Positions 2,680-45,603 of a DNA stretch of 64,000 nt are shown in pieces. The translations under genes and the position numbers were made by a program. Each line of letters opens with the position of its first letter. The stretch's first letter is position 1. The notes below the pieces were generated by a model. That model was given only the letters and a program-made list of their open reading frames with translations. It made no database searches and was not told where the DNA came from. The DNA is from Diphasiastrum complanatum (Eukaryota; Streptophyta; Lycopodiopsida; Lycopodiales; Lycopodiaceae): assembly GCA_029204225.1 (NCBI GenBank), contig CM055097.1, positions 4,601,059-4,665,058 on the forward strand, given 5' to 3'.

Positions 2680-5055
2680 TCATCTACAAGTGGTAATTGT
2701 GCAAACTAGCTTGTGTAAATTTATGAACTTGCTTATCAATCCTAGGGCTGATCTTAATTTCACAAATGCAACTCTTTGAAGTGGTTTAGTGAGGATATCA
2801 GCAATACATTCACTACTTGCCACATGCTCCAAAGATATCTCCTTTGATTGCACCTTCTCTCTCACAAAATGATGAGAGATCTCAATGTGTTTTGACCTTG
2901 CATGGAAGATTGGATTGGTTGCAAGGTGTTGGGCTGAAATGTTGTCATTGTAGAGAGTTGGAACAACATCTAAATTCATGACTTTCAGCTCCATAAGTAG
3001 CCTCTTGATCCATAATAGCTCCTTTGTTGTAGTGGTGAGAGCTTTATACTTGGCTTCGGTTGAAAAAAGTGAGATGGTTTTTTGTTTCTTTGACAACCAA
3101 GAAACTACTCCTCCACCAATGAATGTTGCATAGGCACTTGTGGACTTCCTATCCCTTTTGTCACCTGCAAAATCCGAGTCACTAAAGGTATGCAAATCAA
3201 TGACATCTCTTCTATAGAGAATTCCATGATTTAGAGTACCCGAGATGTATCTCAAGATCCTTTTAGTATTTTTCCAATGTATCACTAATGGATCTTGCAT
3301 ATCTTGACTTAGCCTACACACACTAAAGCATAGATCAGGCCTAGTTATGGTGATCCACATTAAGGAGCCTATAAGTTGCCTATAAAGAGTGATGTCCATA
3401 AAGGATGCTTCATCACTTTTATTCAGCACTTTTACATCTTGCTCCGTTGGTGTTTCTACATGCTTGCAATCTTGCATCTTGAATCTATTGAGCAAACTTT
3501 GAGCATACTTAGTTTGACTAATGAAGATGAAATCTGAACCTCTAAGTATTTCTATGCCCAATATAAAGTGAAGTTGACCAAGATCTACCATCTTAAATTC
3601 TAGTGATAGATTTTTCTTGGTTTTCTCAATCCCATCAATGTTATCACCACTAAGGATGATGTCATCTACATAAATCAATAAAAGTACAATGCCATTTACA
3701 TCATACATTATGTACAAAGTTGGATCATATTCACTTTGAGTGAATCCAATAGAAACTAAGAAATCATGAAGTCTTGAATTCCAAGACCTTGATGCTTGCT
3801 TTAAACCATATAAGCTCCTTTGAAGATGACATACTTTACCTTCCATCCCGAGCTTGATGAAGCCTTGGGGCTGCTCCATGAAGATGTCTTCTTCCAAATA
3901 GCCATTTAAGAATGCATTAGAAACATCCATTTGAAAGAGCATCCAACCAAAATGTGCAAGAAGTAGGGTTTTGCCTTCAATAGAGCTACATAGAACTCTA
4001 TTCATCGAATGGTTAGCACAAGTGAGAGCTTCTCCCCAAAAAGCTTTTGGTAAACATGCATCAATCCTTAAGGCTTTAGAACATTCACACAATGTCCTAT
4101 TCCTCCTCTCGGCTACCCTATTTTGTTGAGGGGTGTAGGGACAAGATAGTACTTTTTTTATTCCTTCTTGATCACAAAATTCTTTAAAAGCATTGGAGAT
4201 ATATTCTCCACCATTATCACTTCTAAAAGTTTTGATCTTGTGATCAAGATACTTCTCAACAAATGCTTTGAACTCAAGAAAGCTTTCAAATACTTGTGCT
4301 TTAGATGAAAGTAAGAATACCCAACAAATCCTTGAGTAATCATCTATGAATGTAACAAACATGGTGGCACTTTCATTGGACATTGTACTTGCAAAGTGTA
4401 CATATGAGTGGATCAACTCAAGTTGATGAGTTGTCTTTGTGATTGAACTTGAGAAGGGCTTCTTATGTGCTTTTGAGAGAGCACATGCTTCACATACTTT
4501 CTCCTCGTTTGCCAAGGATCTTGGAAGTCCTAAGGCAAGCTCCTCCTTGCACATGACCTCCATGGACTTTGAGTTGATGTGACCAAGTCTTTTGTCCCAA
4601 AGACTATGGTTGGATAGTTTGGTCTCCTCGGCTAGCATCACAATATTAGCATCCACATAGGCATCTAATTTGAATAACCTTCCAAATCTTATGCCTCTAG
4701 CAATGATCTTGCCATCCTTCTTGATGTTACATGCATTTGTGGTGAACTCCACAATCAAACCATTGTCAAGCAATTGTCCAACACTAAGCAAGTTCTTAGT
4801 GATACTAGGAATGTAAGGTACTCCATCAATCTTGATCTTCCTTGAAGATCCCAAGCATAAAGGTATGGATCCTATGCCTTCTACCTTACAAGCATAATCA
4901 TTTGCTGTAAAAATTGACTTGATAGGTCCGTCATAGGTAGATAAGTTTGAGAAATACTCCCTCTTACTTGTCATGTGGGAGCTAGCCCCACTATCTATCC
5001 ACCAAGGGTCTTCACCTCTTATGCTTGAAGATGAGAAACTTGACATCATGAGTTA
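2680..5055 (-). pseudogene. Element A pol remnant: PR-IN fused to RT-RNase H
   Basis: The frame is open for 789 codons from 5049. It carries the aspartic protease motif DSGAS close to the start, the GAG-pre-integrase zinc region (RLGH, CEAC), and an integrase core with the second Asp (RSDNGGEY) and the Glu (VAERRNR). The first catalytic Asp, in the usual HSDVH context, is Tyr here (HSYVHF). After EGKT the frame jumps straight to LLLAHFGW of the RT finger/palm, so the integrase C-terminus and RT N-terminus (roughly 200 or more codons compared with elements C and D) are missing, in frame. RT retains YVDDIIL, and RNase H retains the DSDFAGD, EAKYKAL and HARSKHIE blocks. The product would be a non-functional chimeric polyprotein. 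An in-frame TAA at 5055-5053 separates it from the upstream gag frame. Confidence 0.85.
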
Positions 5056-6794
5056 ATCTTCATGAGACTTCTCATCTTCCTCTTAGCCTAGGTTTGCTTG
5101 ACTTTGAGATTGCTTCTTCTTGAAGCACTCTGAGGCATAGTGCCCCATCTTGCCACAAAAGTAACATTTGAACTTTGACTTATTCTTCTTTGGCTTGCTC
5201 GAACTTGGACTTGAAGATCCTGCTTGATCTTCACCTTTGACTTAATTATTCTTGAATGCAGCACCCTTGCCTTTGGATTTGCTCTTGCTCTTGGTGAAAA
5301 GAGCCTTGTCATCTCCATCATTGAGGGAGAGCTTTTCCATCCTTGACTTGATGTGAGTTCTCCTACTCTCCTCGGCCATGAGGACTCTTTGGAGATCTTC
5401 AAGTGAGGGAAACTTGCCCATAATTGCATAGCCTTGCACTAGGCTAGCAAAATCCACACTCAAACCATTCAAGATTAGTTGAGCAAGTTCACTTTCCTTA
5501 ATGGAATCTCCTATGTAAGCAAGCTCCTTGTTTAAGTCCTTAACTCTCAACACATATGAATGTCCACTCTCTCCTTTAGCTTGAAAACATTGAAGGATTT
5601 GATTCTTCAAGGATAGAAACCTTGAAGTATTCTTGGATTCATATATCTTCTGAAGATTTTTCCATGCTTCTTGAGCCGAGGTGCAAGCACCTACCTCCTT
5701 AAGAAGCTCATTAGCTACATTCATTTTTATACAATGGAGAGCAACCTTGCACCTCCTTTTGTATTTTGTAGTGATAAATTTTACAGTTTTTAGAACAATA
5801 ATGATTTTACTTTACAGTCATAGAGAGTTATTGGTTGCTTAATCAATGGATCTATCAAGTTCTACACATTAGATCTTGATCTAGATTCACTACACTTGGA
5901 TTTAAGCAAGAGCAATGGATCAACACATCATAAATTAGTGAGAGTGGCCTCACACGTGTGGAGTACTGTCCACAGTACGGCCTGCACCTGAAACAACAAG
6001 TACAGTAATCCTAGATAGCAATCATTCATAGAAATCACAAGACAAATGACTAGAAACCTCACAAAAGTGTAGAATGCAAAAGTCTCATCAATCTTCTTAG
6101 CAAAATGATGATCCTTTTATGGATCAAGTACATCCACGAGTCTAGTACAGTCAGCAGGTCTTCACACGTGTGAAGAGTGCCACATCACTCAGATCTATCC
6201 ATTTGGTCCATCCTTGATCCTTATCCAAAGTTGACCTTCTAGAATATGGCTAAAGTCCAAAAAGCTAGTCTCCTAGAATATAGGAATATTCTCTACAAAA
6301 TAGGATCTAAGGAAAATGGTCAACTCTTATCTTCCAGTACTCTATACACACGTGTGAACATCCACTTGCCATGTGGGAGCATTTACTCATGCACATGCAA
6401 GGAAAAGCTAATGTCTAGGTGACTAGTCAACTTGACTAAAAACTAGTCATATCATGTTCACACTAACTAGATTGATACAAAATCAATTTAGATATATACA
6501 AGTATGAAAAGTACATCCTTTCACGCGTGGGAACATGCTCCACATATGTGAAATCAGATCATCAACATTATTCTAATGTTTGATCAATATTTACAATAAC
6601 CAATGTCAAGTGAGAAGTGCTAATTTTCAACATGTAGCTTCTTGAGAGTGAATGGGCTCATCCTCTTCACCACTCACTATATCCATTAGATCTTGTAAAA
6701 TAAGAATTGATTCCATTCTTAGCTTCCAAATTGAATAATTAGAAGCATTCAATCTATCATGTGAATCCAAAAGATATGCATTCATTGAAGCCAT
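5056..6794 (-). pseudogene. Element A gag, split by a solo LTR
   Basis: Gag would package the element RNA in cytoplasmic virus-like particles. It begins with ATG at 6794-6792 and shows the copia gag N-terminus (NASNYSIWKLRMES). It is cut at 6633 by an inserted solo LTR and resumes at 5766 in the same frame once that LTR and one copy of its target duplication are removed (162 nt before, 42 nt to the next internal Met, both multiples of three). It continues through the UBN2-like region, then a CX2CX4HX4C zinc knuckle (CYFCGKMGHYASEC) near 5160-5115. In-frame TAA codons lie at 5244-5242 and 5085-5083 (CAA-to-TAA type), with another at 5055-5053. Confidence 0.8.
5772..6632 (-). repeat. Solo LTR inserted in element A gag
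   Basis: An 861-bp block begins TGTTGAAAAT (minus strand, from 6632) and ends TTTATCA (at 5772). It is flanked on both sides by the 5-bp duplication TGTAG (5767-5771 and 6633-6637). There is no internal coding sequence or primer-binding site, so it is most simply a solo LTR left by LTR-LTR recombination, though a small non-autonomous LTR element is possible. It contains three perfect CACACGTGTG palindromes (5951-5960, 6163-6172, 6347-6356) and a TATA-like TATATA near 6490. Excising it restores the gag frame exactly, which confirms its borders. Confidence 0.8.
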
Positions 6795-10022: not shown

Positions 10023-10189
10023 GATCACTCGTCAAAGTATCAGCTTTCACTCCCTGAGCAACCATCTCTAGCCTTGTCGACTTATAACCATAGGCATGCT
10101 AAATCCACATCACTCTTAATGCACTCCATGCCCTCAAGATATGTACCACCTCTTGGTACACTCCATGCCACCTACCTCCAAGTAAGTAT
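10023..10189. repeat. Tandem duplication, left copy, part 1 (split by element B)
   Basis: The sequence starting GATCACTCGTCAAAG matches the block starting at 16478, including the words GGCATGCTAAATCCACATCAC and CACTCCATGCCACCTACC. Element B inserted at its end, duplicating AGTAT (10185-10189). The copy continues at 16213 beyond element B. Confidence 0.75.
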
Positions 10190-10829
10190 TGTGAAAGATT
10201 CAACTAGTTTCATCACATTCTGCAATATTTTCATATTTGGCATATTGAGGCCAAAACTTGTTTTAGACTTAGAGATTGACTTTTCAAAGTTCATTAGTCT
10301 AAGTTTCATCTGAATAAACACTTTTTGAAAGTGTGGCAAAGATAGAATGCGAGTTTGAGTAGATTCAATATGAATAAGTTGGGTACATTGAATCTAGACC
10401 CAAAATTGGTAGGGTTAGCATTTTGGTGGGAAAGCCAAGTGGCCAAATAGGGTCTGGACCTGTTATAAAAGGATGTGACTCGTGGAGAGAGTCATCTTCT
10501 CTCTTCTCTATCTCATTTCATGCTTATACATGGTTCTCTTGGGTTCTACTATCCATTGGTGCACTATCTTGGTGATTGCTTGCAATTCTATGTGTAGAAT
10601 GATCTATATTTGTTATTTTTGGATCCACACGTGTGAAATACAGTAGCTTGCTGGTTTTGTACGGACAACAACAGTACATAATCATTTCATCCAAGTTTGA
10701 TCAAGTTCTATTAGTGTTTGCATCTCAAATTGTGTGTAGATGCTGATTTTTCTACATTGGTGTGTATTTCTCTTTCTAACCAAAGATCATTCAAGTAGAT
10801 TGGATCTTAAGGATCTGAAATCTTTCACA
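10190..10829 (+). repeat. 5' LTR of element B
   Basis: This 640-bp LTR has a perfect 10-bp terminal inverted repeat (TGTGAAAGAT ... ATCTTTCACA). It contains a TATAAAA promoter element at 10464-10470 and a CACACGTGTG palindrome at 10626-10635, followed by two GTAC-containing words. The matching 3' LTR is at 15563-16212. Confidence 0.92.
10464..10470 (+). promoter_or_regulatory. TATA box of element B LTR
   Basis: TATAAAA sits about 275 bp into the LTR, with the expected transcription start some 30 bp downstream near 10495-10500. The same word recurs in the 3' LTR at 15837-15843. Confidence 0.7.
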
Positions 10830-10841
10830 TGGTATCAGAGC
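10830..10841 (+). other. Primer-binding site of element B
   Basis: TGGTATCAGAGC begins immediately after the LTR. This is the standard plant copia site complementary to the 3' end of initiator methionyl-tRNA, which primes minus-strand DNA synthesis. Confidence 0.92.
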
Positions 10842-11428
10842 TTGTGTTTCAGGTTATGAAGGAGGAAATCAGATCTATCAATGATTTGGTGAAGATATCA
10901 AGTCTAGAGCATGCTAGAGAGGATTCTACACCAAAATAGGATTTTTTGCTTTTGTAGATTGGATCTTTTGTAGATCAAAACACTAAATAGTCAATATACT
11001 TGTTCAATTCCGTTTTTTGAATTCACATGCTGGATTTGGCCAATTTTTGAATCATTGGTTCAGCCTAACTGGTGGCTTATAGATGGCATATTAAATTTTC
11101 AGCATTTGCATGTAGATTTGGAATAGTCAATTTTTTGTGATTTTGTCAAAATCCTAATTTTGATTGGATCTCTAGATAGTGAGGTTGCTGGACTTCATTT
11201 GAGTGTATTTCAATCTTAGGAAGTGGCGAAAGTCATTAGATTGAGGATAGATCATAGGTTGATCAAGATTCCATGATTCTATGTGTTGATTTGCTTGGAT
11301 AAGTGCTAGAAGAGAATTTGTGAGATAGTTTTAAATCTTGGTGATTTCTTTTGAAAGCATTTGTTGTTGTTCAAAGGAGTGCTTTGTGCATTGAAACAGG
11401 TTGAAAGAGAAGATCAGGTCATTGCTAC

Positions 11429-13909
11429 ATGGCAACCTCAATTGGAGTCATGTTGGAAGCCAATGATAGGCTTACCTCAAGTAACTATTCATTATGAAAA
11501 GTGAGGATGGAGTCACTTCTTGAGATGAATGATGTTTTGGATATTGTTGTAGGTTTGGAGGAGAGACCAGCAACACAACAAGATCAGTTGAGGTATGATA
11601 AGAGGGCCAAGAAGGCTCTACACATGATAAAGATGAATGTTACCAATGAACTTCTCAAGGAAGTTGGTAAGTGCACATCATCTTTGGAAGCTTGGAATTC
11701 ATTGAAGAAGCTTTATGAATCCAAGTCTACTTCTAGAGTGTTGACTCTAAGAAGGCAAATCTTTTCTTGTTTGCAAAAGAATGAAGAAAGTCTAAGTACT
11801 TTTGTTTTGAGAATGAAAGCATTGAATGATGAGTTAGCTTGCATAGATGAAAGCATTAAGGAAGGAGAGCTTATTCAAGTGATTCTTAATGGCTTGTTGG
11901 ATGCTCATGCTAACATTGTTCAAAGTATTGCTATTCAAAAGACTTTGCCAAGTTTGATGGATCTTCAAGAGATCTTGATCAATGAGGAATATAGGCTTCA
12001 AGCAAGAGGTGGATCTACATCGACATTTCAAGAGGATGCTATGTTCACAAAGGGCAAATTCAAGGGCAAAACCAAAAGCAAGTGGTCTAAAGGGCAAGAT
12101 CAAGTGGATGCTTCTTCAAGTGGCAAAAAGAAGGATAGATCAAAGCTCAAGTGCTTCTATTGTGGCATCAAAGGACACTTTGCAAGTGAGTGCTACAAGA
12201 AGAAGAGAGATCAAGGAGACAAGCAAGGTAATCTTACTCTTGATGAGGATGGTTTGGATGTGCAAGATGCAAATGATGATGCTTTTGTGATGTCTTCATG
12301 TATGCTTGCTAATGATGGAGATCTAGATCCTTGGTGGATTGATAGTGGAGCAAGTTCACACATGACCTTTCACAAAGAGTACTTCACTTCTTTGTTGGCA
12401 TATGGAGATGACAAGAGGGTGATCTACATGGCCAATGATGGTGAGTGTGCAATTAAAGGGATTGGCACAATTCCTATTTCTCTCTCTACAAATAGGAATG
12501 TTCATTTGGAGGATGTCTTGTTTATTCCATCCATTACCAAGAATTTGCTTAGTGTGAGTCAAATGCTAAGTAAGGGCCTCAAGGTGGAGTTTGATGGAGA
12601 TGCTTGTTTGATCAAAAGGAAGGATGTCTTGATTGGAAAAGGTAAAAGACAAGGGAAGTTGTTCAAACTTGATGCTTGCGTTATTGCTAACCAAGTTGGA
12701 TGTGTTGCAAGGGAGCAAATTTCTATTCAAGAGGTTTGGCACAAAAGGATGGGACACCTCAACTTCAAGTCATTGGAGGTAATGGCAAGGAAGAAGGTTG
12801 TGATTGGTCTTCCAAGTTCCTTAAGTAATGACAAGCATGTTTGTGAGTCTTGTGCTTTGTCTAAGTCATATAGACTACCTTATACAAGATCTATTTCTAG
12901 ATCTACAAAGCCTTTTCAACTTGTACATTCGGATATTCATGGATTTACTACAATTAGCAATAGTGGAGCTAAGATGTATGTAACATTCATTGATGATTTT
13001 AGTAGATTTTGTTGGATCTATCTACTAAAGAGCAATGATGAAGTGTATGATGTCTCTGTCAAGTTCAAGAATGCAAGGGAGAACCAATTCTCCACAAAGA
13101 TCAAGTGCTTGAGAGGTAACAATGGTGGTGAGTACATATCTAACAAGTTCAAGGCCTTTTGTGATGAGCATGGGATCAAGAGGGAGTATACAACATCAAA
13201 GACCCCACAACAAAATGGAGTGGTTGAAAGGAAGAATAGAACTTTATGTGAAAGTGCTAAAGATATGAGGTTAAGTGCTAATCTTGACAAACCATTTTGG
13301 GATCAAGCTTTGTTGTGTGCCAATTTCCTGTGCAATAGGTGGCCGAGTGCTATTTTGGATGGAAGGACACCTTCTGAGATGCTATTCAAGAGGAGGCCGA
13401 GTGTCAACTTTCTAAGAACCTTTGGATGCACATGCTATGTCAACATTACTCTTGATGATAGGACCAAGGAGGATCCATCTTCAAGAAGAGGTATTTTTGT
13501 TGGATATAGTGAGGTGAGTAAAGCCTACAAGGTTTACATTCCTTCTACTAACAAAGTGATTGTTGGTAGAGATGTCATTTTTGATGAGGGAAACATTCCA
13601 AAGGTGTCTTCAAGCATGATTGATGGTAAAGTAGATGGTTCTAACATTCTTGATGTTGATGAGAAGGATCCTACTTTGTATGGTGGTGATGATGGACCTT
13701 CATCAAGTCAAAAGCCAAGGAGAACACCAAGAGAAAGACAAGTACCTTCAAGGCTCACATATGATCCAAAAGGTAAGCAAGTAGTTTCTGGAAATTATGT
13801 TGCTTTTCTAACCTCTTTGGATGAGCCTACAATTGTAGATCAAGCAAGGAAAGAAGAGGAGTGGATCCAACCAATGGATCTTGAGTATCGATCTCTTATG
13901 AAGAGTGGA
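11429..13909 (+). pseudogene. Element B gag-protease-integrase
   Basis: ATG at 11429 starts a copia gag (MATSIGVMLEAN). An in-frame TGA at 11495-11497 replaces the Trp of the conserved SNYSxWKVRMES block, and the same frame is then open from 11498. The domains are gag UBN2-like (about 11501-12130), CCHC knuckle CFYCGIKGHFASEC (about 12152-12193), protease WWIDSGASSHMT (about 12334-12369), GAG-pre-integrase (RMGHLNF, CESC), and integrase core. The integrase keeps the first Asp (HSDIHG) and the Glu (VVERKNR), but the second Asp, in the usual RSDNGGEY, is Asn (RGNNGGEY). The polyprotein would process itself, form particles and insert cDNA. With these changes it cannot do so. At about 13910 the copia homology stops just before the start of RT. 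Confidence 0.85.
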
Positions 13910-14982
13910 ACATCTTTTGGAGGATCTTCTTGTGTACATGGAGCTATGCAAGTGGATGGATGTTATCTTGCTGTAAAATCAAGTAATGGATCTGGAAAAC
14001 AAAGTTTGTTCAATGACTTTGATGGTCAAGTTGAAGATCAAGAGGTTGATCTCAAAGCGCTTCAACTAGTCAAAAGGGAAGTTGGCAATTTGGAAATAGT
14101 CAAGAGCATCAAAGGAGAGGTAATTGGCAAAGGTGTTATGGATCTGTTTTTGCAGCATATTGAAGACTCAAGTAAGGTCAAAGGAGCAGCAAGGAAGTGT
14201 TGTTCAAGTTTACTTTACTTTTTCTATCTCATGTTTGAGCAATTTCATGTGGATGTGTGCAAATTGTCAAGATATGGTAAAACTAGCTACATTGGTGAGC
14301 ATTGTTTTGATGTTGGATTTGTACTAGCATTCTTGGCTGATTTTGCTGATGGAAATGAAGCTATTGGAGGTTCATTATTTCACTCATCCATGGCTAAGTT
14401 CTCAAGTGTTGAACTACTTGGTGCCAATACTTGGAGATTGTCAATTTTTGGTGAATTCATGGTCATTTTCTTGTGTCAAGTAGATCTTGAAGATGGACTA
14501 GTGCAAACTACTTGGTTTATGGAGTCATGTGGTGCTAGATTTGCATCATTAATGTACTCACCTACTCATGGATTTCCAAGGTTTGATGGTTTCTTGTGGC
14601 AAGATGAAGATGGAGGCTCATTCATGGAGTATCATGGTGGATACAAGGCAACAAAGGACAAAGGAGGAGGAGACATGCAAGCAAAAGTTGATCACTCACA
14701 TTTATTGTTTGTTTGCTGTATTTTTCCAGAGAGTTCAGAGTTGGAAGCATGATGGAATCATTTCATTTACATTCTATTTGATTCTTCATATTCTAGTCAC
14801 ATTTTTACATGTAAAATTGATATAAGAAATAGTGAAGCATCCCAAGGGGACACTATTCTCTATATCAATTATGGTTGTTTCTATTTTGAGCATTACATGA
14901 TCATTGAAAGGAGATCTATTCTTAGGAAGAAGATCATTCTTATGATGGATCAAAGTTCTATTGGCAAAAACTATGCTAAGAG
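13910..14982 (+). other. Unidentified segment replacing RT in element B
   Basis: Copia homology ends after GTxxx at about 13910 and resumes exactly at CATTGG (14983), the block just before RNase H. Between them, where RT should be, lie about 1,073 bp with no YVDD or other RT motif. The frame of gag-PR-IN runs on through 848 bp of it to TGA at 14752, adding about 280 residues with Cys/Phe-rich stretches (SSLLYFFYLMFEQFHVDVC) that I do not recognise. The remainder (14753-14982) is non-coding and holds a hairpin. It could be a captured transcript, part of another repeat, or a structured non-coding cargo. No intron-like or host-gene hallmark is visible. Confidence 0.7.
14818..14867 (+). other. 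Imperfect hairpin in the element B cargo segment
   Basis: The 17-nt arms 14818-14834 and 14851-14867 pair at 14 of 17 positions (TGATATA...ATAGTG against CACTAT...TATATCA). They enclose a 16-nt loop that itself contains TCCCAAGGGGA, able to form a small inner stem. It lies just downstream of the fused ORF stop. Confidence 0.6.
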
Positions 14983-15567
14983 CATTGGAAGCTAGGAAAG
15001 CGAGTTTTGAGGTACATCATTGGAACTCAAGATTTTGGCATATTGTATGAGGGATCATCACCTAATCTTTTTGGATTTTCAGATTCGGACTATGCTGGAG
15101 ATATAATGGATAGGAAATCCATTAGTTCTTATTGTATTTTCATAGGTGATGGAGCTATATCATGGATGTCAAAGAAACAAGCCACTATCTCATTGTCATC
15201 TAGTGAGGCCGAGTACAAAGCTCTTACATATTGCACAAAGGAGATGGTATGGATCAAGAGGATGATCAAGGATCTTCACTTGCTGGATTTTTCAGAGAGC
15301 CCAATCATCTTTTGTGACAATCAATCAGCCCAAAGAATGGCATCCAATCCTATCTTTCATGCTAGGAGCCAGCATATTGAGATACAATATCATTTTGTGA
15401 GGGAGCGAGTCATTGCAAAGGAGGTGGAGCTTCAACATGTGTCTTCAAGGGAATGCGTAGCTAATATCTTCACCAAAGCATTGGGAAAAGACTTGTTCAT
15501 GAAGCATAGGACCTCACTTGGAGTATTATCAAAGTCTATGCTAAAACTAGTTGAAGAGGGAGTGTGA
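14983..15567 (+). pseudogene. Element B RNase H region
   Basis: An open frame from 14983 (HWKLGKRVLRYI) gives a full copia RNase H. It has SDSDYAGD with the first acidic residues, SSSEAEYKAL, CDNQSAQ, then NPIFHARSQHIE and the C-terminal tail. It degrades RNA in RNA:DNA hybrids during reverse transcription. No start codon or upstream RT frame remains; the stop at 14752 and the non-coding stretch separate it from gag-PR-IN. The terminal TGA (15565-15567) overlaps the first bases of the 3' LTR. The domain itself looks intact. Confidence 0.85.
15550..15562 (+). other. Polypurine tract of element B
   Basis: The purine-rich GTTGAAGAGGGAG directly precedes the 3' LTR start TGTGAAAG. This is the expected primer for plus-strand DNA synthesis. 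Confidence 0.8.
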
Positions 15568-16212
15568 AAGATTCAACTAGTTTCATCACATTCTACAATA
15601 TTTCCATATTTGGCATATTGAGGCCAAAACTTGTTTTAGACTTAGAGGTTGACTTTTCAAAGTTCATTAGTCTAAGTTTCATCTAAATAAACACTTTTTG
15701 AAAGTGTGGCAAAGATAGAATGCGAGTTTGAGTAGATTCAATCTGAATAAGTTGGGTACATTGAATCTAGACCCAAAATTGGTAGGGTTAGCATTTTGGT
15801 GGGAAAGCCAAGTGGCCAAATAGGGTCTGGACCTGTTATAAAAGGATGTGACTCGTGGAGAGAGTCATCTTCTCTCTTCTCTATCTCATTTCATGCTTAT
15901 ACATGGTTCTCTTGGGTTCTACTATCCATTGGTGCACTATCTTGGTGATTGCTTGCAATTCTATGTGTAGAATGATCTATATTTGTTATTTTTGGATCCA
16001 CACGTGTGAAATACAGTAGCTTGCTGGTTTTGTACGGACAGCAACAGTACATAATCATTTCATTCAAGTTTGATCAAGTTCTATTAGTGTTTGCATCTCA
16101 AATTGTGTGTAGATGCTAATTTTTCTACATTGGTGAAATTGGTAGTGTATTTATCTTTCTAACCAAAGATCATTCAAGTAGATTGGATCTTAAGAATCTG
16201 AAATCTTTCACA
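15563..16212 (+). repeat. 3' LTR of element B
   Basis: This 650-bp copy of the 5' LTR differs by about ten substitutions and one 10-bp insertion near 16135 (GTGAAATTGG type). It carries CACACGTGTG at 15999-16008. It is followed by AGTAT, completing the target-site duplication. Confidence 0.92.
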
Positions 16213-16477
16213 AGTATGACCCACCACACATGATGTACCAGCTGAAGAACATCCACTATGCATACAATGATGTATCATACTTGAGTAACTATAGCATGTA
16301 ACTATAGCATCTCCTGAGTGCCACCCTAATGGACTCGTCATCCACATACTATCCTCACCTAACATCTTCCATCATGGTCACCATCTTGATAGACAAGCCA
16401 AACACCAAAGCACTACCTGATCCTCCTGGCTCCTAGCAATGTCACTCGCTCTTCCTATGTAAGGGAAACTTCTCAAG
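16213..16477. repeat. Tandem duplication, left copy, part 2
   Basis: This continues the unit begun at 10023. It contains GACCCACCACACATGATG and ends AACTTCTCAAG, all repeated in the next unit. Compared with the right copy it holds about 86 bp extra (around 16260-16345). Confidence 0.75.
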
Positions 16478-16818
16478 ATCACTCGTCAAAGTATCAGCTT
16501 TCACTCCCTGAGCAACCATCCTTGTCAACTCACAACCATAGGCATGCTAAATCCACATCACCCCTAGTGCACTCCAAGCCCTCAAGATATGTATCACTTC
16601 CAGGTACACTCCATGCCACCTACCTCCAAGTAGGCATGACCCACCACACATGATGTACCAGTTGAAGAACATCCACTAAGTATCCACACACTATCCTCAC
16701 CTGACATCTTCCATCTTGGTCACCATCCTAATAGACAAGCCAAACACCAAAGCACTACCTACTCCTCCTGGCTCCTAGCAATGTCGCTTGCTCTCCCTGT
16801 GTAAGGGAACTTCTCAAG
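16478..16818. repeat. Tandem duplication, right copy (uninterrupted)
   Basis: A 341-bp direct repeat of the split left unit, beginning GATCACTCGTC and ending AACTTCTCAAG. It shows the pre-insertion target site of element B (CCAAGTAGGCATGACCC), confirming that B is an insertion. What the unit originally was is unknown. Confidence 0.75.
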
Positions 16819-17114: not shown

Positions 17115-18214
17115 CAATTTGATCTTGTCCTTTAGGCCACTTGCCCTTGATGATCATGGCCTCCTCATCTTGAGATGTCGATGTAGATCTACCTCTTGCT
17201 TGAAGCATATATTCCTCATTGATCAAGATCTCTTGAAGATCCACCAAACTTGGCAAAGTTTTTTGAATAGTAAGATTTTGTACAATGTCAGTAATGATCA
17301 TCCAACAAACCATTAAGAATACTTGAACAATCTCTCCTTCCTTAATATTCTCATCAATGCAAGCTAACTCATCACTTAAAGACTTCACTCTCAAAACAAA
17401 AAGTATTAGGACTCTCTTCTTTCTTTTGTATGCTTTGAAAGATTTGTCTTCTTAGACTCAACACTCTAGAATGGTAACATTCATCTTGATCATGTGTAGA
17501 GCTTTCTTAGCTCTATTGTCATACCTCAATTGCTCTTGTTGAACCAAGGGTCTCACCTCCAACCATACAACAATATCCCTCAACTCATGCATTTCAAGAA
17601 TTGATTCCATCCTCACCTTCCATGTAGACTAGTTGGATGAGGTAAGCTTGTCATTGCCTTCCAACATGAATCCACTCATTGTAGCCATGTTACAATGACA
17701 TGATACTTCTCTTTCAACCTGTTCCAATGCACAAAGCACTCTTTTGAAATACAACAAATGTTTCCAAAACAAAATCACAAAGATATGGAACCTCTCAATT
17801 CTCTTCTTGCACTTATATCTAGCAAATCAATAGAGAAAATGTAAAAATCTTGATCAACCTATGATCTACCAACAATCTAATGAATTCTGCCACTTCTTAA
17901 GATTGAAACACACTCTATTGAATTCCAAGAACCTCACAAAATAGAGATCCAATCAAAATTAGGATTTTGACAAAATCACAAAAAAATGAATATCATTCTA
18001 CATGCAATTGCCTAAAACTTGATATAGAATCTCGTAGCCTCCAATGAAGCCTTCCAAATGCATAAAAACTTGGCCAATTCCAGTAAGCCAAGTGTGAAAT
18101 TGGAATTCCTTGAGTTCATAAACCTAAATTGAGTTTTGATCTACAAAAGATCAATTCTATATATGCAAAATTCTTGATTTTTGAGTAGAAACTCTTTCAG
18201 CATGCTCTAGAGAT
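17115..18214 (-). mobile_element. Element B relative: gag and leader fragment
   Basis: On the minus strand, gag codons resembling element B (ELACIDENIKEGEIVQ, QKTLPSLVDLQEILINEEY) run from 17394 to about 17118. They are preceded (17395-17700) by frameshifted gag N-terminal sequence and then the B-type leader up to CATGCTCTAG at 18210. The piece ends where element C is inserted. It has no LTR, protease or pol, and multiple indels. Confidence 0.8.
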
Positions 18215-41887: not shown

Positions 41888-44009
41888 CTAGCCGAATACA
41901 AGTTGCCACAAGGAGGGGGCTTCCCCCTCAAAAACCTGAAGATTCCTGGTTGTCCAAATCCTCCACAAAGCCGCTAGCCTGCACACATGCCAAAGGGTAA
42001 GAGCAGAAGAATCAGTCAGAACGGAATCCCCCAGCAAGATAGTAGCCGTGTCCAGAGAAAAAGTGAGGCCCCCCCCCCCGGCGAGAAAATGTGGCTCAAC
42101 TCCAACCAAATATGTCGATGACAATGAAGGAATAAGTGCTCCATCGTTTCTTCAATCAGCTGGCAGAGTGAACAAAGGCGATCATCAAGGAAGGCCACTT
42201 GGACAACAAAGGAAGGGATTTGGTAAGGATGCGATAGGCGAGGTACCGTCGCTTCCCTACCAACAGAGATTGAGCAGTATGGAGGCGGGAGCGCAGGGCA
42301 AGCGAAGAGTAAGAGGTCGACCAAAGGTGGTTCAGGTAATCCGGGAAAAGAGAGGGAAACTGACAACGATGCAGGGAAGAATAAGAGAAGAGGGAGGGGG
42401 AAGGGGGCGGGTTCCAACCAGAAAGGTCCGCGAGTGGGACACGAGAAATGTGAAGCGGGATGGCACAAAAAGAAGCCAAGAAAAGCAACCTGCTCTCCGA
42501 TACAGAGAGGGTAGAGGAGGGAAGGACTTGGCAAGGAGGTATATGGACCAACTGAGCAAGGGAAGAAAGGCCTTTAGTGGCTAAGGAAACAGAGAGGCGA
42601 GGGTGAGAGCGAAAAAGGGGCTGTGCATTTGGAGGAAAAAGAGAAGAGGTCCAGATAGATTCAGAGGAAGGGAGAGTGGAGGCGTCTCTCCAGGAGAGGA
42701 AGGATCGAAGGAGAAGCAAAAGACGAGCCAGGTTAGTCAAAACAAAAGAACCTTTGAGCTTGAAGGAACAGCCAAAGGCCAGTATACCCGCAAGACTGGG
42801 GGATAGTAGAGCCATAACTGCCGTCGAAGAAGCCACAAAAGAAAGGAGGAGAGCATGCCAATGTTGAGAAAGGAGAGCAAGGGCCGAGAGTATATGGAGG
42901 ACCGAAGAATGGTTCTTGACAGTAGGGTCAGGAATGCCAAGGCCACCATCGCCAGTAGGGACCGTGCACATAGACCAGGGAAGAAGATGATGCTTTTTCG
43001 CCCAGAGAAAGCGGCGAAGGGCCTTAGCAAGAGAAGCCAAACGTTCATAGACGGCGGGCCATGGCCTTGGCCAAGATCTTCTAGGAGGTATTTAACATGG
43101 TGAGTGGACGAAAATCCGAGATCAGCAGAGGCGAGAAAACTTTGGGGATGAATTTGATCAGGCCTTCAGACATGAACGCAGGCAGGACCGAAGTAGAGCA
43201 CGTGAGGTTGGCAACGTGAAGCAGCCCTGGACCCAACGACTCCCAGAACTGGAGGAAAAATCCAGGAAAGACTCCATCTGGTCCAGGAGTTTTGCCAAGA
43301 GGTAAAGAGAACAGGGCAGCATGCAGCTCAGTCAAAGAAAGGGGGCCTTTATCAAGGAAACCTGATGAGAGGAGAGGCAACGCTCAGTGTAGCAAAAAGA
43401 ATGAAGACGTAGAGGGTCCGGAGGCGACGTGAGCTCAAAAGATCGAAACAAGGAAAGAAACGCTTGAACCATTGAAGCGGAGTCAGAGAGGATAGTCCCA
43501 AAAACGGAAAGAGAGTGAATGAAGGAGGAAGAATGCTTCCAACGTAAGGCACGAAAGAAAAAGGAAGAAGGAAAATCCCCCTGGCGAAGCCAGTTGAGCT
43601 TCGAACGAAGCATGAGGCCAGTGGCAAGGTGATAATCATGGCGACGCAGAATGACCTGGCAACGCAGCTGAAGATCCAAGTAAAGTGTGGAGTCCCTAGC
43701 AGAAGTTTGGGCCACAGGAATGCCTTGAAGGAGGGTGACCGCTAGGGAGCGGAGCCAAGAATGAGAGGGAGAGAGTGATTGGCCAGCATGGCAAAGAAAG
43801 GCAGAGCCGTTAGTGAGCATGGCAGCAAAGGAGGAGGAAGAGACAAGGGTAGCCTGCAGCGTGTCTCGAATGGCAAGAGAGGACAAGAGAGTGGAGTTCA
43901 TGATGTAGGGAGAATAAAAAGAGTTAGCCGGAAGGGCGAGAAACGAGCAACGAAGCAGAACAGGACTATGATAAAAGAGGGTGGTAAATTGATGAGTCTC
44001 AACGTCCAA
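41888..44009 (-). pseudogene. LINE ORF2 RT remnant and C-terminal region
   Basis: Frame 44009-43332 is the linker before RT. Frame 43380-43081 has the RT fingers (GKTPGPDGVFPGFFLQFW, LIKFIPK, DFRPLTMLN). Then, within about 40 bp, the sequence jumps to KALRRFLWAKKHHLLPW (43040), a post-RT block. The whole palm with the catalytic FADD/YADD motif is gone. Frame 42534-41888 gives the C-terminal zinc-type region (HLFLHC, LWRIWTTRN). Reverse transcription by this copy is impossible. Confidence 0.8.
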
Positions 44010-44018
44010 GAGCCGAAG

Positions 44019-44643
44019 CTAGTTAGCACAAGAGGAAAGGTAAAAACGGTCTAACCTTGCCGAACGGAAAGACGGTCCCAGCCTACAATTAGTCCAGGTG
44101 TGGTGTGGGAACTGTTGCAAGGCATGAGAGGCATCAATAAGAGAGTGAGAGGACTGAAATGAAGACCAAACAACATATTCAGAGGGTAGAATAGCATGCG
44201 GCCCATCAGAATAGTCAAGGTACATGTTAAAATCCCCTAACACAACCAAATGATTGTTCAAAATGGGCGACAAGGACCACCAGAAGTCAATGCGTTCAGA
44301 AGTAAGGCAGGGAGCATAAAGGTTAAGGAAAGAGAAGGTGAAACCTAGCTTGTGAAGGCGAAGAAGGACCCACCTGCTAGTTGAGTCAGAAGAAGTGGAG
44401 AGCACTTGCCAATCATGGGAAACAAGCATTAGAACTCCCCCCGAGTGCCTTGGGCACGAGAAACACCATAGTGAAAGGTGGCCGCAAATATCTTGATGAT
44501 GCAATGCTGATTGAATTCCCACAGTTTTGTCTCTTGCAAAGCAATGAGGACATTCTTTGAAGGATAAGAGCCAGGACTTGAGCCATACAGGTGCCACGCA
44601 CCAGATCATTCAAGCCACGGACATTCCAAGAATACAGATTCAT
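44019..44643 (-). pseudogene. LINE ORF2 endonuclease domain
   Basis: The domain starts MNLYSWNVRGLND, the usual APE-type endonuclease N-terminus, and in the next frame has SGGVLMLVSHDW, LNLYAP, LVVLGDFNMYLD and a terminal SARLDRFYL block. The GDFN and SxxDR motifs that nick target DNA are present. One or two frameshifts near 44600-44430 break the frame, and the catalytic QETK motif is only recoverable out of frame. Confidence 0.8.
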
Positions 44644-44649
44644 GTCGAA

Positions 44650-45603
44650 AACATCGAAAGAGGAGAAGCAGGCAAAGGCTGATGCGACAAGAGAGTCTCC
44701 CGTGCCACCAACTCGGGTAGGAGCTTGGCCCTTAGGTCCCGCTTCACTGTAGTAAGCTTGTTAGAGGCTTCATCACCGTAGAGCGCTTCTTAGTGATGGT
44801 TGCAGCCGCAGGCACCCCGACAGGCAAAACCGCTAAGGGGAACGCCCGCGAACACTGACTAGTACGGGCTGCCCATGGACAAAGAGGGCGCTTTTTCAGA
44901 GGGAGGTGTCAGCCCATGCACCAAGGGAAAGGATGTCCACAGTTGAGCATGAGGTTGATCCTCAGGGTAATCTGCCCATTGGGCCGACTTAGTAGTCTGT
45001 AGATCAGAACTGAGAGACACGAGCGAGGGAGGCTGCGTGCCGGTGAGGGCCACTGAAACCACAGCCTCTTCAGCAGCAGAGAAGGATCTCACGGACAAAG
45101 GAATAAGAGTCTGCTGCTCGCTTGGCAAGACAGTCGCCAATCCAATGGCAGGAGGCACTGTTGGAGGCGAAACAGAGGGGCCGAGCAAATGCCGAGAGGG
45201 CCGGCACAACAATGCAGGTGCATCCAGGGGAGTAGGCAGCAGAGGAGGCAAGGATGACATTGCCGGAGCAACCTTGAAGGTCGGCTCGGGTGGATGGGCC
45301 TTCCCAGTCCCTGGCAAGAAAGAATCACCAAGCATTGAGGAATTAAGCGCCGAGCAAGAAGGGGGCAGTTTGCCACCACATGCCCAAGGCGATGACATCT
45401 GTGATAGGAATCCGGGAGTCCTATAAAGATGTGTGGCTACACATATGACTGATCAGCAGAGAAGAAGAGAGCCTGCTCCACCAAAGGCTGAGATAGCTTC
45501 CAAAGGACACAAGCCCGGACATGAGGCGAAATGCCGCAAGTGTATTCACTGAACTAAAAGGAAGATTTAGAATCTCAATCTCAACCGAAAACAATACTGT
45601 CAT
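44650..45603 (-). pseudogene. LINE ORF1 remnant
   Basis: Two frames remain. 45603-45421 has FSVEIEILNLPFSSVNT, resembling the nucleic-acid-binding N-terminal region of plant L1 ORF1. 45398-44859 is a Pro/Ser-rich tail of 179 codons. ORF1 protein would coat the LINE RNA. The zinc knuckle expected in some families is not visible. Confidence 0.6.

Follow-up and report, generated by a model that had tools for sequence, protein, structure and literature searches.

How does a retrotransposon come to carry a foreign-looking stretch of DNA where its reverse transcriptase (RT) should be, and what is that stretch? The question is raised by an LTR retrotransposon at positions 10190 to 16212 of a 64-kb window of Diphasiastrum complanatum DNA (the window is the whole stretch analyzed, and all coordinates refer to it). 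The 5' LTR (10190 to 10829) and the 3' LTR (15563 to 16212) match each other in blastn at 97% identity; both start with TGTGAAAG and end with CTTTCACA. Of 640 aligned sites, 10 are substituted between them, and a single 10-nt indel also sets them apart (K2P distance, 0.0158). Copies of AGTAT adjoin their outer ends at 10185 to 10189 and 16213 to 16217 (no strand assigned; all other features of the element lie on the plus strand). The near-identical LTRs and perfect target duplication reported in an earlier note on this DNA are thus both present. Immediately after the 5' LTR stands TGGTATCAGAGC (10830 to 10841), which we take to be a primer-binding site of the initiator tRNA-Met type, and before the 3' LTR stands GAAGAGGGAG (15553 to 15562), presumably the polypurine tract.

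Pfam searches and comparison with other copies delimited a gag-protease-integrase (gag-PR-IN) reading frame at 11429 to 13912. The Pfam matches in the element were copia gag, zinc knuckle (20.7 bits, 0.1 bit under the cutoff of 20.8), Pol_BBD, gag_pre-integrs, rve, and an SH3 domain, and we take a DSG motif in the polyprotein to mark the protease. The RNase H region (14983 to 15567) had no Pfam match and was recognized by alignment to two neighboring copia elements, to which it is 59% and 56% identical. The TG..CA LTRs, the short target duplication, the copia-type gag, and the domain order gag-PR-IN-(RT)-RNase H place the element among the Ty1/copia retrotransposons, with another segment filling the RT slot. 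Direct repeats of 44 to 128 nt flank the element at 10023 to 10189 and 16216 to 16809, some of them on both sides, and at about 16600 to 16680 a further copy of the flank, with slight differences, shows what the unoccupied insertion site looks like.

Homology to other copia elements ends at about 13912 and resumes at 14983 with the HWK of the RNase H region; therefore, RT and the connection domain have been replaced by about 1.07 kb (segment X, 13913 to 14982), which is in frame with the integrase. This agrees with the claim of the earlier note that copia homology brackets the RT slot. So does the lack of an RT motif: RVT_2 was absent from the element (Pfam, E values up to 1), and a neighboring copia element in the same window, used as a control, matched it at 2.8e-48. 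Having no RT of its own, the element is classed as a nonautonomous derivative. We rejected the idea that X inserted, making a target duplication of its own, into an element with an otherwise intact RT, as RT is absent and the repeats near the edges of X are weak (27 nt direct at 70% and 21 nt inverted at 76%) and were taken as chance.

Segment X looks like coding DNA. It has about 356 codons joined in frame to gag-PR-IN, and the polyprotein frame does stay open into it, as the earlier note had stated: no stop occurs from 13910 to 14749, and none of 20,000 Markov-1 sequences was open likewise. The codon periodicity of X was above that of all 1,000 stop-free simulations, and its halves alone were reached by 3 and 6 of 1,000. 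Two integrase/pol stretches of equal length, included as controls, were reached by 1 and 0 of 1,000 simulations; the real RNase H frame was reached by 344 of 1,000 and hence not picked out, so some real frames escape the test. A codon score trained on copia elements was not counted as evidence on X. It gave X 0.19, less than the pol (0.33) and RNase H (0.26) of this element, without singling X out, and an antisense X frame with 13 stops scored 0.29. Compared with this element's gag-PR-IN, X differed in two-fold purine codon choice (P = 0.007) and did not differ in four-fold codon choice (P = 0.11). Going by sequence, the frame would specify a putative protein.

The 3' part of X had been described as a structured noncoding tail. 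We reject the noncoding reading: 14753 to 14992 contains no stop in the X frame (9 of 5,000 shuffles do as well), and the TGA at 14750 to 14752, beyond which the frame is open, is found in only 2 of 30 aligned copies (those most similar to the window's X). Folding of the whole tail was not unusual compared with shuffles (z = -1.6), though an inverted repeat within it (14815 to 14870; 20 nt with a 16-nt loop) folded better than shuffles (z = -3.6). Apart from this one hairpin, nothing supports X as a selected RNA. In 29 of 30 copies, the joint frame ends at a TAG (14993 to 14995) that lies 10 bases beyond the right junction; the remaining copy is gapped there. A stop at 14977 to 14979 lies ahead of the RNase H frame in all 30; the RNase H remnant, in a different frame from X, is probably not translated.

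Searches for relatives of X gave nothing reaching the cutoff in Pfam (best subthreshold matches, DUF4315 at an E value of 0.037 and MxiC_C at 0.24) or NCBIfam (best E value, 0.13) and no significant match among PDB sequences (best E value, 2.6). No relative was found at an E value of 1e-3 in viral contigs or in prokaryote genome contigs, and an integrase query had no match in the viral contigs. Elsewhere in the window, X had no other DNA match at 1e-3, and the best other translated match had an E value of 0.14. The single subthreshold Rfam match was located outside X. A structure prediction (280 amino acids, single sequence) was uninformative (pLDDT, 34) and was left unused.

Scored against background, the sense-strand trinucleotide makeup of X fits this element better than does any of 382 combinations of piece and strand taken from the rest of the window; scored relative to other copia elements, 2 of the 382 fit equally well. 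The best-scoring background pieces overlap copia-like fragments. A composition so close to the element's own would be more expected of a domain with a long history in it than of one captured recently, but with no host coding sequence as a control, the comparison does not tell such residence apart from a host gene with a similar makeup.

Next, we looked for X at the genome level by searching the host assembly (1,744,706,496 bases in 5,176 contigs) with positions 13880 to 14990, which comprise X and both junctions. The query matched over its full length, at 98 to 100% identity, at all 40 best-scored places taken from 4,083 first-look candidates (window included); the copy number is therefore at least 40. 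These places are spread over many contigs, and all carry the copia junctions. The earlier note had found no second copy in the window, which is correct for the window, and had considered that the segment might occur only there, which is not the case. Among the 30 aligned copies, X differs by 1.8% on average, and the junction letters are identical or nearly so in every row (one has a 4-nt gap).

The outer ends of both LTRs were visible in 9 of 20 longer stretches that we fetched; seven of these have both LTRs whole, and two have an incomplete 5' LTR. Perfect 5-bp target duplications flank seven of the nine copies (AGTAT, ATATA, TTTAG, GACAA, TCCGT, GAGGG, and GTCCT), two of which are those with an incomplete 5' LTR. 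In the other two copies, one duplication is only 4 bp long and one is lacking. The flank of the fetched AGTAT copy is that of the window copy, and the two represent a single, duplicated insertion, so the perfect duplications number seven distinct ones with the window copy included. The fetched copy (L031; G000:C6:22060313-22066823) matches the window element at about 99% identity and lies 17 Mb from it on one contig; it seems that the whole region, beyond the element itself, was duplicated. The same defect is thus present in many copies at independent insertion sites, as defines a nonautonomous family. Identical junctions in many copies with distinct target duplications were the pattern that the earlier note had proposed to look for, and they support its view that the chimera existed before it inserted and was mobilized in trans. 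K2P distances between the LTRs were 0.016 to 0.032 in the seven fetched copies with whole LTRs. At a substitution rate of 1.3e-8, given as typical for plants in PMC9744471, this corresponds to insertion ages of roughly 0.6 to 1.2 million years; the host's own rate may differ.

Other elements were noticed as well. A copia element on the minus strand of the window (2680 to 5811) has a 790-amino-acid frame open from integrase into mid-RT, with an RVT_2 match starting at profile position 68; it has no SH3 domain, and the C terminus of its integrase and the N terminus of its RT are missing without a break in the frame. Two near-identical X-family copies (L044 and L045) end abruptly within the integrase side of the frame. 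Just upstream of the break lies an RT-bearing copia element, likely a nested insertion, whose RT protein is about 79% identical to that of the element at 2680 to 5811. Within the window, 17141 to 18211 (minus strand) holds the leader and a gag fragment of a related copia element in the opposite orientation (78 to 85% identity). Broken, C-rich frames at 42156 to 45452 (minus strand), three of which were scanned without a Pfam match, are by eye what we take to be LINE-like.

We then examined the state of the copies. In the window copy, gag codon 23 is TGA; of the other 11 rows that include the gag start, 10 have no stop at this codon and 1 is out of frame. The residue at 13118, presumably the second catalytic Asp of the integrase, is Asp in 26 of 30 rows, Ser in 1, gapped in 2, and Asn in the window copy. 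The frame is open for 1,182 codons, from gag through X, in 1 of the 12 copies that include the gag start (window copy among them). X itself contains stops in 12 of 30 rows; the other 18 have none, and 15 of those are also ungapped.

Selection was assessed from nonsynonymous-to-synonymous (N:S) counts of single-base codon variants under a local-identity filter in 26 copies, four of the 30 rows (L002, L009, L016, and L029) having been dropped as duplicates of others. Counts were near neutral for X (131:37; expected ratio, 3.09) and RNase H (78:26; expected ratio, 2.71) and lower for PR-IN (182:89; expected ratio, 2.85). The difference between X and PR-IN had an uncorrected P value of 0.017, or 0.20 with shared variants alone, and shifted frames of X gave much the same ratio as the X frame. 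Without the filter, PR-IN also came out near neutral (417:135 for singletons and 98:38 for shared variants); the mutation spectrum behind that count had been taken from poorly aligned LTR rows, and the filtered count supersedes it. Purifying selection on X was therefore not detectable by N:S among the 26 copies, a test of low power because the copies are so alike.

The explanation that we consider likely is a high-copy nonautonomous Ty1/copia family in which X has been a passenger since one founding replacement, with RT supplied by a related copia element. Because the junctions are common to the copies, one founding event preceded amplification, and shared junctions together with distinct target duplications indicate that the chimera formed before insertion and then multiplied. 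X would have taken the place of RT and the connection domain in a single event, most likely as the enzyme switched templates twice while copying a co-packaged RNA. Switching of this kind is known to join RNAs that were packaged together (PMC13317346; PMC1950507) and would fit the sense orientation of the replacement. The family would then have spread with a borrowed RT, having retained its LTRs, primer-binding site, and polypurine tract; with RT missing and copies at independent sites, the enzyme must come in trans. We propose that X persists as a passenger because copies are made in trans, and it may be a piece of another coding RNA. The RNase H region, largely intact although out of frame, suggests that the chimera is young. 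Several observations count against this explanation: among the nine fetched copies with both LTR ends, one lacks a target duplication, one has only 4 bp of it, and two of the seven with perfect duplications have incomplete 5' LTRs; the composition of X resembles that of the element; and the contrast in N:S between X and PR-IN is weakened by the unfiltered count, the shared variants, and the shifted frames.

The earlier note suggested that X may be a cargo, either a captured transcript or a selected RNA; for a captured cargo, we lean neither toward nor against. One candidate source, plausible without being favored, is a host-gene mRNA of which a fragment was captured by template switching, as in maize Bs1. 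The sense orientation, the unbroken coding-like frame, and the lack of a match to known transposable-element proteins agree with such a capture. It is countered by the lack of any relative reaching the cutoff in Pfam, NCBIfam, or PDB, by the copia-like composition (with the limit on host coding sequence given above), and by the failure of the genome search to yield a parental locus, the best 40 of the 4,083 candidate places all having copia junctions. X may instead stem from a virus or another retroelement that shares the host; recombination, or a template switch between RNAs packaged together, would have joined it to the copia element. This, too, is a possibility that we hold short of an even chance. 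A composition within the copia range is consistent with it, as is the overlap of the next best of the 382 pieces with copia-like fragments, but nothing related to X turned up in viral contigs or in the window's other elements. That X is a strongly diverged RT, a reading that the earlier note had raised, is very improbable despite its exact RT position, and we rejected it: in addition to the Pfam result, RVT_2 had no match in full-length X from four copies at E values up to 10 (HMMER's filters drop many weak matches in such a search), and tblastn of X against the window's RT regions gave no match of note. Beyond its odd structure, nothing suggests that the element is an assembly artifact or a single damaged element; this scarcely credible reading is refuted by at least 40 places with the same structure (all of the 40 best scored) on many contigs and by the differing target duplications.

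A further alternative concerns what X does. It could be a functional accessory domain, long resident and under selection, that for example favors packaging or use of the partner's RT. The frame continuous with integrase and open to the right edge without a gap in half of the 30 copies argues for this, as do a codon periodicity that no simulation reached and a sense-strand composition matching the element's own. We nevertheless regard such a domain as unlikely, given the near-neutral N:S among the 26 copies, the stops in 12 of 30, and a probably untranslated RNase H region whose largely intact state suggests a young chimera. The fuller version, in which a copia lineage exchanged its RT for a working orphan domain and the gag-PR-IN-X polyprotein assembles particles, integrates, and recruits a foreign RT, is slightly more doubtful still. 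If true, the family would be a specialized parasite, more than a defective copy.

Under the passenger explanation that we prefer, the element probably borrows its copying enzyme from other elements, as its own loss of RT combined with its spread requires. Nonautonomous LTR families are ordinary, and such parasites of other elements' enzymes are already known. Here, a copia family has lost exactly RT and gained an orphan, coding-like, in-frame segment and yet has amplified. Its many young copies with common junctions offer a datable system for RT sharing between copia elements and allow one to ask whether such segments serve a function or ride along as passengers. A literature search covering titles and abstracts, with little subscription literature, turned up no copia family in which an orphan segment stands in for RT.

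Several known systems share part of this pattern. BARE-2 is a copia element. The X family resembles it (PMC9744471) and Tos17 (PMC3977881) as a copia lineage that misses one needed function and presumably relies on others for it; these two are without a working gag, whereas the X family is without RT, and the passages on them in those sources mention no replacement segment. Like maize Bs1, the X family is an LTR element bearing foreign coding sequence, but the source genes of Bs1 are known (PMC13317346), whereas the searches above gave no source for X. Plant LTR elements with additional open reading frames likewise carry added coding sequences that most or all members of a family share and that often resemble nothing known; as described in PMC7264820, these mostly lie between pol and the 3' LTR, whereas X replaces RT. 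The closest precedent that we have met is the RLG_Sabrina_NA elements of wheat. In RLG_Sabrina_NA2 to NA8, which are nonautonomous and present in several hundred copies per variant, unrelated segments that encode short proteins stand in place of gag-pro; four of the RLG_Sabrina_NA segments have no relatives among wheat proteins, and two resemble viral capsid proteins in 3D (PMC9744471). In both cases, a canonical coding region of a multicopy LTR family has been swapped for an unrelated coding-like segment. Sabrina is a gypsy element that had gag-pro replaced, and section 2.7 of that source does not describe its segments as in-frame fusions such as that of X with gag-PR-IN. The X family thus extends the Sabrina pattern to copia elements and to the RT slot.
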